From Apostichopus japonicus (Eukaryota; Echinodermata; Holothuroidea; Aspidochirotida; Stichopodidae): a stretch of 64,000 bases of DNA. Made by a program: the position numbers and the translations under genes. The notes under the pieces were generated by a model that made no database searches, was not told the DNA's origin, and worked only from the letters and a program-made list of their open reading frames with translations. Location: the NCBI RefSeq assembly GCF_037975245.1, contig NC_092571.1:13480917-13544916 (forward strand), in the 5' to 3' direction. Below are positions 3,001-59,108 of this stretch, one piece after another; position 1 is the stretch's first letter; each line of letters begins with the position of its first letter.

Positions 3001-3199
3001 CGCATAAGGGTACTTTTTAAGAAAAAGTCGCCCAGGAAAGAAAACCAAACTACCGAACGACTGATCCGTTCTCAACCCTAATACCCTTGCATCGGGACTG
3101 TGACTGTGTGATCATCGTCAGGTGTGCATCACCATTCCCCTCGAAAGGGAACCGAAACCAAACTACACATGATCTTAGCCAAAAGGGCGTATAAGGGTA
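3001..3199 (-). mobile_element. U2-snRNA-headed SINE-like insertion, copy a, with target-site duplications
   Basis: The element (3013-3187, minus strand) begins with CCTTTTGGCTAAGATCATGT, which is U2 snRNA from about nucleotide 13. A TTCCCTTTCGAGGGGAA hairpin and a shared 110-bp body follow, then a GCCCAGG/CCTGGGC-type end and CTTAAAAAG. It is flanked by CGCATAAGGGTA (3001-3012) and CGTATAAGGGTA (3188-3199), a 12-bp duplication with one mismatch. The duplicate block at about 57804-57816 has the site without the element. That filled/empty pair shows it moved as a unit after the A/B duplication. The 5' truncation fits target-primed reverse transcription. Confidence 0.85.
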
Positions 3200-29843: not shown

Positions 29844-30056
29844 ATGCATATAATCGCTTCTCGGCCTGTTGGCTAAGATCATGTGTAGTATCTTTTCCCT
29901 TTCGAGGGGAACGGTGATGCACAACCGACGATGATCGCACAGTCACAATATCGATGCAAGGGGGCTGGGGTTGAGAGCGGATCAGTTGTTCGGTAGTTTG
30001 GTTTTCGTGCCCAGGTTCTTTCCTGGGTGACTGTTCTTGAAAAGTATGCATATAAT
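29844..30056 (+). mobile_element. U2-snRNA-headed SINE-like insertion, copy b, full 5' end
   Basis: The element (29853-30045) starts exactly at U2 nucleotide 1, ATCGCTTCTCGGCC(T/G)..., and follows U2 to about nucleotide 41, including GTGTAGTATCT with the branch-site recognition bases. Then come the TTCCCTTTCGAGGGGAA hairpin, the shared body and the TTCTTTCCTGGGTGAC end. ATGCATATAAT at 29844-29854 and 30046-30056 is an 11-bp target duplication that overlaps the first AT of the U2 head. No U2 Sm site or stem-loops III-IV are present, so this is not a U2 gene. Confidence 0.85.
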
Positions 30057-52227: not shown

Positions 52228-53479
52228 CTGCAAAAGAAAAAATAGTCCGTGATTGGAAAACTTAATAGACCTTTAAACAATGCGGTACATCAAGAGTCGT
52301 GCAATAATGGTGTAAAGATGAAGTATTCAAATTAGTTGAACTAATTTAAACACCATTATGATACAATGCATCGAGATTGACAAATACCAATCAATATATC
52401 TAGACCGCAAATACGCTAAATTAAGTATAATTTTTGAAACACAAATACCAAAACGATACATCTACAACCGTTGAAAGCAATGTGATGAAACAAACCAAAA
52501 TAAGCAATGATGATTAACCTATGCTAATAAAAACAATATAGTTAATCTTACTTAAGAAAAATATAGCATATACGATGTACCTCTAAAACAAGACATCACA
52601 GTATCCCCAACACCAATAGGAATAGATCCATAACTTCTTAAACACCTAGACTATATCTAGAATCAATAAAATGAAAACCTAATATTACAATAAGAAACCA
52701 ATCAAAGGGATATGTACAGAACCGAGGAAAGAAGTAATAGCACATTTGGATTCCTAAAGAATAGTCATAGTAAAATCTATCCTACGGAAAGATCAATACT
52801 TTGAAATCTCTTTCAACTTATTGGCTAGTCAGACGATGCCAAGAAACGTCTCTTAAAGCAAAATATGTTTGTGGGTTTTCAGTTGGGTTTATGGTGGTTG
52901 TTAAACAGACTGGGATTGTTTTTGGTTTTGTTGACCTTTGGTCCGTGTCCGTTTTCTTTGCACGTAAAAAGCACAAAATATGATCACAAATGCTGAATGA
53001 TGATATAAAAAAATATCCTTAATTAGCAAACGATTATCTATAAAGCCTACTCAAATACTTAAAATGACATTTCCAGAACCATGGAAACATTTACAAACCC
53101 TTAAACATAATATAGGAGAATGCAGCCATAATAAACAAAAACTTGTTATCGTCAAGTGTAAGTATTCTACCATTTGGATCTGTTTTTAAAGGTATATTTA
53201 TATTAAATGCTATCATTTTCCCTTCTGTGTTTATCTTGTCATGTGATATACTTAATAACTTAAGATGACTACTGGTTATATCTTTGTCTCTTGTAATTAA
53301 TGTGACCTTAAAGGGTTGTACAGAAAAAAAATCGATTATCGTTATGTATCTAACATAGTTTTAGGACTTTCAAGAATGGATAGACGATAAACTCCTCCTT
53401 CTTCATTCAAATACCGTGTAAGATAAATTTCTTTTCATTTCTGTCAAAGCTTACAAAACTCAAAATCGTTTACATCATT
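52228..53479. other. Noncoding; no feature seen
   Basis: AT-rich, presumably intronic in the block B receptor gene. Confidence 0.35.
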
Positions 53480-53660
53480 GGCTAAGGTCATGTGTAGTAT
53501 CTGTTCTTTTCCCTTTCGAGGGGAATGGTGATGCAAACCCGACGATGATCACACAGTCACAGTCTCGATGCAAGGGGACTGGGGCAGGGAGCTGATCAGT
53601 TGTTTGGTAGTTTAGTTTCGTGCCCAGGGTCTTTCCTGGGCGACTTTTCCTTAATAAAAA
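53480..53660 (+). mobile_element. U2-snRNA-headed SINE-like insertion, copy c
   Basis: Begins GGCTAAGGTCATGTGTAGTA and TCTGTTCTT (U2 from about nucleotide 19 to 47). The TTCCCTTTCGAGGGGAA hairpin, the shared GGTGATGC...GATCACACAGTCACAG body and GTGCCCAGGGTCTTTCCTGG then follow. A T-rich degenerate head may extend to ATCG at 53466. Flanking target duplication is not clear. Confidence 0.75.
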
Positions 53661-58848: not shown

Positions 58849-59108
58849 ATCGCTTCTCGGCCTTTTGGCTAAGATCATGTGTAGTATATGTTCCTTACTT
58901 AAAAAGTATGAGGATAGTTTTAAGGAAAGTCACCAAGGAAAGAACCTGGGCACGAAAACTAAACTACCGAACGACTGATCCGCACTCAACCCCAGCCCCC
59001 TTGCGTCGAGTCTGTGGTTGTGTGATCATAGTCGGGTGTTTATCACCATTCCCCCTTGAAAGGGAACAGATACTACACGTGATCTAAGCCAATAGGCAGA
59101 GAAAGGAT
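58849..59108. mobile_element. Palindromic pair of U2-snRNA-headed repeats, copy d
   Basis: The left end is U2 nucleotides 1-48 on the plus strand: ATCGCTTCTCGGCCTTTTGG, then CTAAGATCATGTGTAGTATA and TGTTCCTTA. From about 58900 to 59108 a full-length copy lies on the minus strand, its own U2 head ending at 59108 with a sequence resembling ATC(G)CTTTCTCTGCC. Both outer borders are therefore U2 5' ends pointing inward, with the truncated plus copy joined to the tail of the minus copy. Confidence 0.8.

Follow-up and report, generated by a model that had tools for sequence, protein, structure and literature searches.

The genome of the sea cucumber Apostichopus japonicus carries a short interspersed element (SINE) that has a head derived from U2 small nuclear RNA (snRNA) and copies docked inside the U2 genes themselves; this combination is what is new here, and the docked copies are probably the sources of the family. 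The promoters of snRNA genes lie outside the transcribed RNA; once a SINE headed by snRNA sequence has jumped, it should therefore be left without the means of its own transcription. Docking at a fixed site in U2 would be a concrete answer to this problem of self-transcription and would link the way in which a SINE arises with LINEs that are target-specific, with the U2 array serving as a small and readable source locus. If true, docking would also explain the origin and the continued activity of other SINEs with snRNA-derived heads.

In the window, by which we mean the whole stretch of 64,000 nucleotides analysed (C11:13480917-13544916), a 20-mer from the U2 head is found five times with up to three mismatches, against none in 100 shuffled versions. 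The original prediction had read four loci here as copies of one repeat. All four are real and belong to one family (Table 1), but the locus at 58849-59108 is made of two oppositely oriented pieces and hence is not one copy, which brings the number of pieces to five. The copy at 29853 had been said to begin at U2 nt 1, which alignment to the consensus bears out, and to lie between 11-bp target-site duplications (TSDs); seen by eye, the duplication is present as ATGCATATA(AT), 9 bp and 2 more that also belong to the element; the element ends in AAAAGTA. The flanks of this locus are common to L006, L008, L009 and L011 and, less fully, to L007, all on the same contig, so the locus has also been duplicated. 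Also by eye, a duplication of ~12 bp that differs at one position (3001-3012 and 3188-3199) flanks the copy at 3011-3189, and the flanks of the copy at 53478-53657 show no clear duplication. The Rfam U2 matches at 58849 and 59013 both exceed the gathering score, and the U2-head fragment at the former adjoins the inverted SINE. Elsewhere, L010 has a degenerate head before an inverted SINE, and in L118 13 bases separate a U2 head (nt 4-44) from the full SINE after it.

Table 1. Coordinates of the SINE pieces in the window (positions within the window) and of other loci named in the text (contig:positions).
Feature	Position	Strand	Remarks
SINE, full-length, nt 1-194	29853-30046	+	94% to consensus; starts at U2 nt 1
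Head part of this SINE	29853-29897	+	body and tail continue to 30046
TSD of this SINE, ATGCATATA	left 29844-29852, right 30046-30054		by eye
SINE copy, nt 10-194	3011-3189	-	85% to consensus
SINE, 5'-truncated, nt 17-191	53478-53657	+	89% to consensus
SINE copy, nt 6-190	58918-59103	-	91% to consensus; Rfam U2 match 59013-59108
Isolated U2 head, nt 1-46	58849-58894	+	98% to consensus; Rfam U2 match 58849-58963
L118, U2 head before full SINE	C11:23845700-23846240		
L099, L119, fourth APE-type LINE	C16:31082200-31088990		
L074, LINE in U2 spacer	C16:31040200-31046500		
L083, LINE beside tRNA genes	C15:7599450-7600790		
L086, LINE beside tRNA genes	C13:14832630-14833900		

Across the 671,581,487 bases and 35 contigs of the genome searched, the family proves far from a handful: a 56-mer of the body has 1,116 matches with up to three mismatches (control, 0), and an exact 27-mer of the tail has 216 (reversed control, 0). 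One of the contigs, C35, is mitochondrial; its cox1 can be read well if AAA is taken as Asn, and after it come what look like trnR, nad4L and cox2, a gene order and a code typical of echinoderms. Capture-recapture, with 26 of 60 tail copies also matching the body, puts the total at a rough 2,575 copies, a figure that presumes independence and is probably low. The element is non-coding, about 191-194 nt long, and consists of U2 nt 1-45, a body of ~146-149 nt (149 in the dispersed consensus, 146 in docked copies) and a fixed 3' end, ..CTTAAAAAGTA. The consensus was drawn from 27 of 30 near-full-length copies, the remaining three falling below 85%; over nt 4-45 its head is identical to the host U2, including the host's own variant CATGTG, while nt 1-3 are present in individual copies. 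The body is not U2, as had been foreseen: compared with U2 46-193 it has no similarity, 454 of 500 shuffles scoring as high. The hairpin where head and body meet reads CCCTTTCGAGGGG in the dispersed consensus and varies among the near-identical copies L073, L076, L077, L078 and L108 (CCCTTAGGG, CCCCTCGGG, CCCCTAGGG and CCCTTCGGG).

The 60 copies sampled come from 100 listed places of the 216 tail matches (every one listed on C1-C7 except three, together with two on C8); the sample is not random and, being chosen by an exact tail 27-mer, favours young copies. Substitution divergence in its 27 near-full-length members has a median of 4.7% (2.6-10.5%). Half of the sample (30/60) starts at U2 nt 1-7 and the rest is 5'-truncated at scattered points; the 11 bases before each of the 11 copies that start at nt 1 hold no U2 upstream sequence. 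TSDs above threshold flank 20 of the 60 copies but only 1 of 176 control pairs, in which the flanks came from different loci; the 20 correspond to 18 loci, L021/L022 and L032/L054 each being a single duplicated locus. Flanks are shared through duplication among L018/L020/L065/L072 and within L021/L022, L059/L060 and L063/L064. High copy number, TSDs and scattered 5' truncation together support the proposed SINE family with a U2 head. It might be argued that such loci are plain U2 retropseudogenes or one segmentally duplicated locus, given that Rfam assigns two of the window pieces to U2 and that some copies share flanks. However, the similarity to U2 ends at nt 45, short of the Sm site and stem-loops III/IV, in agreement with the prediction that these are not plain retropseudogenes, and the TSDs differ from locus to locus. 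These two observations rule out plain pseudogenes and pure segmental duplication, and this explanation has next to no probability.

The host U2 genes form a tandem array on C16 (645-bp unit), with single copies on C15, and it is within such genes that the SINE is found inserted between nt 38 and 39, the site also used by resident Keno-like LINEs. This insertion is plainly site-specific, as read in the assembly. The junction of the SINE tail with U2 nt 39 has seven exact matches, six in the C16 array and one in a diverged U2 on C20; an eighth, with two mismatches, is the nested copy L097 described below. The pattern WAGTATCTG.. marks U2 3' halves, T standing for an intact junction and A for an occupied one, and its 80 exact matches divide into 60 intact sites (4 on C15, 56 on C16) and 20 occupied ones, all in the C16 array. 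The SINE occupies six of the 20 and Keno-like LINEs the other 14 (seven of family A, four of B, three of C), with 13 sites read as sequence and seven assigned by ORF positions. Full-length docked copies have the order U2 1-45, body, U2 39-193 (L077, L078 and, with one change at nt 43, L076), and in the 5'-truncated docked copies (L075, L078) the insertion is bounded by a perfect 15-bp duplication, TCTGTTCTTTTCAGC, which is U2 39-53. For the SINE, the 5' breaks in U2 are at nt 40, 45 or 53. One U2 unit holds two tandem SINEs (L073), and in the C20 copy (L079) a SINE that has a head of its own comes after the U2 target. In the docked units that can be compared (L073, L076, L077, L078), the upstream DNA matches that of an intact unit over 452 bp with 0-1 mismatch.

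The docked copies form one young, nearly uniform subset and differ from the dispersed consensus at several positions, so that those docked today did not give rise to the older copies and can be sources for the youngest dispersed ones only. The short junction of TTAAAAAGTA with TCTGTTC occurs exactly 20 times, seven times in the C16 array, once on C20 and 12 times elsewhere (with one mismatch allowed, 50 times, against 15 for the reversed control). Eight of the 12 dispersed junctions belong to SINE dimers (L097, L100, L101, L102, L105, L106, L107, L108), in which the tail of the first unit, truncated in L100, leads into U2 39-45 (39-50 in L097) and then into a second body. The others are L104, a SINE monomer beside TCTGTTC, L103, which holds no SINE, and L109 and L110, a degenerate pair that have their flanks in common; among the seven one-mismatch junctions that were read, two are dimers (L112, L117) and five have no SINE. 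Over ~100 nt, both units of L102, L106 and L108 have 99-100% identity with the docked copy L077. Perfect TSDs enclose the whole dimer in L106 (15 bp) and L108 (13 bp), and TSDs are also present round the older L107 (12 bp) and the truncated L100 (13 bp); the script found only a weak one for L102 and none for L101, L105, L112 and L117, of which L105 shows one by eye.

Not every such pair need stem from a dimeric transcript. L097 is a full-length SINE inserted into an older SINE, at 38/39 of the latter's U2 head, and L101 and L105, whose first unit is of docked type and whose second is more diverged, look like nesting in an older SINE as well; U2 sequence in SINE heads is thus also a target. Where the two units are equal and young, the most plausible reading is that the dimer derives from the RNA of a docked dimer. 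Since dispersed dimers carry the U2-site junction and are near-identical to docked copies, the docked copies are probably source genes, and we consider it likely that the sources of the SINE are copies docked inside U2 snRNA genes which borrow the U2 promoter. Alternatively, this could be an ordinary SINE driven by an internal pol III promoter, whose true sources are the dispersed copies, the insertions in U2 being incidental to the target choice of a LINE. Most copies are indeed dispersed, and the docked ones are just one young, nearly uniform subset; but Rfam finds only U2 in a docked copy, with no tRNA, 5S or 7SL match, and the young dispersed dimers, which match docked copies near-perfectly and carry the U2-site junction, speak against the pol III explanation. 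It seems improbable.

If docked copies are the sources, which enzyme disperses their RNA? Among loci with TSDs, TA stands at the junction in 9 of 14 against a background of 0.088 (p = 4e-7), although the TSD scoring prefers longer matches and may slightly favour TA. These 14 were obtained from the 20 TSD-positive copies after removal of duplicates (L021, L054), an ambiguous case (L053) and two TSDs shorter than 9 bp, and, from the 15 that remained, of L066, which lacks a TA end. Their TSDs are 9-18 bp long, 13-18 bp in 12 of the 14. Both the lengths and the TA resemble the U2 site, TATCTGTTCTTTTCAGC, and on this likeness a Keno-type enzyme is a candidate for dispersal.

A general search for reverse transcriptase (RT) uncovered the LINE ORFs inside the C16 array. 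One array LINE has an ORF1 and a 1,162-aa ORF2 with APE endonuclease and RT, its 3' end joins U2 nt 39, and one unit further a SINE lies in a U2 gene, also joined to nt 39. Family A of the Keno-like LINEs has APE endonuclease and RT domains (Pfam), and families A, B and C all have their 3' junction at U2 nt 39; their 5' breaks in U2 are at nt 50 in A (full and truncated), nt 25 in B (by position) and nt 29 in C. Among the matches listed, 11 of 11 A, B and C ORFs are in the U2 array, whereas most SINEs are dispersed, and this counts against Keno as the dispersal enzyme. A fourth APE-type LINE (L099, L119; ORF2 of 1,157 aa), outside the 20 occupied sites counted, also lies in a U2 gene, preceded by U2 1-30 and with its end, ..CATTAAAAGAAA, joined to U2 nt 39. 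Another kind of LINE (L074; ORF1 of 407 aa, ORF2 of 961 aa) is found in the U2 spacer, with just a few bases between it and the U2 gene downstream, and ORFs of its length and score occur also on C7, C17, C8, C2, C16 and C23.

SINEs often, though not always, have a 3' tail in common with a resident LINE. Comparison of the SINE 3' end with the tails of resident LINEs, which had been suggested as a check, gave no match among the LINE ends read, namely Keno-like A, B and C and the further families D and E; SINE and Keno-like tails have little beyond AAGTA in common. In the flanks of the 60 sampled copies, a LINE sharing the SINE tail was sought and none had a recognisable LINE upstream (0/60), and in the tail-only, duplicated loci L063 and L064 the further 2.6 kb upstream contain a tandem repeat, its step being ~56 bp, and lack a long ORF. 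A tail structure shared by the SINE and Keno was also considered and dropped, as Keno tails fold no better than shuffles. A poly-A-tailed LINE, the ORF2 of which is ~47% identical to that of Keno-like A, ends directly beside tandem tRNA genes identified by ARAGORN (seven tRNA-Gly at L083, four tRNA-Leu at L086) and possibly targets tRNA arrays; at L085 and L087 it has tandem repeats beside it in which ARAGORN finds no tRNA, and L082 has neither.

With somewhat less confidence than for the docked sources themselves, we favour a life cycle that would do without an internal promoter. It would start when the SINE inserts at the Keno-like site, nt 38/39 of U2 genes, a step visible in the sequence. 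The U2 promoter would then transcribe U2 1-45 and the body from U2 +1, as suggested by the intact DNA upstream of docked units and by dispersed full-length copies that start at nt 1 without upstream sequence. This RNA would be reverse-transcribed, with a Keno-type LINE as the most likely source of the enzyme, and inserted with target duplications at many other sites, preferably those that, like U2, have TA at the junction. The outcome of this third step, dispersed U2-headed units with TSDs, monomers as well as dimers, is directly apparent. The dispersed copies, away from the external U2 promoter, would probably leave no progeny unless they happened to insert into a U2 gene, and the cycle would send daughters with a U2 head, as well as docked dimers, across the whole genome.

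In such a cycle the head would be captured target sequence, a by-product of docking and not an internal promoter, for its end at nt 45 falls within the docking breaks observed at nt 25, 29, 30, 40, 45, 50 and 53. A different origin of the head is conceivable, in which the RT of a LINE jumped from SINE body RNA to U2 RNA and docking came later. U1 and U2 sequences are said to have been added repeatedly in the SINEU elements of crocodilians. Template jumps that add snRNA to the 5' ends of LINEs are documented, as for R2, which can gain a U12 leader in this way (PMC3414825). The R2 case, however, gained 156 nt of U12, whereas the SINE head ends within the range of docking breaks, and a template jump leaves unexplained both the SINEs at the Keno site in U2 genes and the dispersed dimers with a U2-site junction. 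We regard it as unlikely, and docking as the better account of the head.

These findings also bear on the annotation of this genome. The published SINE content of A. japonicus, 159,644 bp in all or 0.02% (PMC10344927), is probably too low. Since Rfam can report a SINE head as U2, the published number of splicing snRNAs, 996 (PMC10344927), may be inflated. Among the titles and beginnings of abstracts listed by searches of the open-licence literature, none reports a U2-headed SINE from an echinoderm; phage collections and IMG/VR, where animal SINEs are not expected, gave no match to the SINE.

Among the closest known systems is SINEU, families of which, with heads from U1 or U2, were reportedly described in crocodilians by Kojima in 2015 (GBE 7:1702), their partner being, it is said, a Tx1-type LINE with a Mariner target. 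The present SINE likewise has a U2-derived head, equal to host U2 nt 4-45, but unlike SINEU it belongs to another host and has probable source copies sitting in U2 genes. In work on U2-specific LINEs, Utopia insertions have U2 from nt 39 onwards on their 3' side, and the U2 sequence flanking Keno at its 3' end is said to be identical (PMC4640811). The resident LINEs share with Keno the APE and RT domains (family A) and the junction at U2 nt 39 (PMC4640811), whereas the SINE is non-coding, mostly dispersed, and has a tail that shares little beyond AAGTA with the resident Keno-like LINEs. A further parallel is offered by R2 and the R2/R1 SIDEs of Drosophila, where non-autonomous elements reside inside a host RNA gene and depend on a LINE and on a cotranscript of the host gene (PMC3414825). 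According to the same account, SIDEs are the ends of LINEs and reside in rDNA (PMC3414825), while the SINE described here keeps the 5' end of its target as its head and spreads genome-wide.
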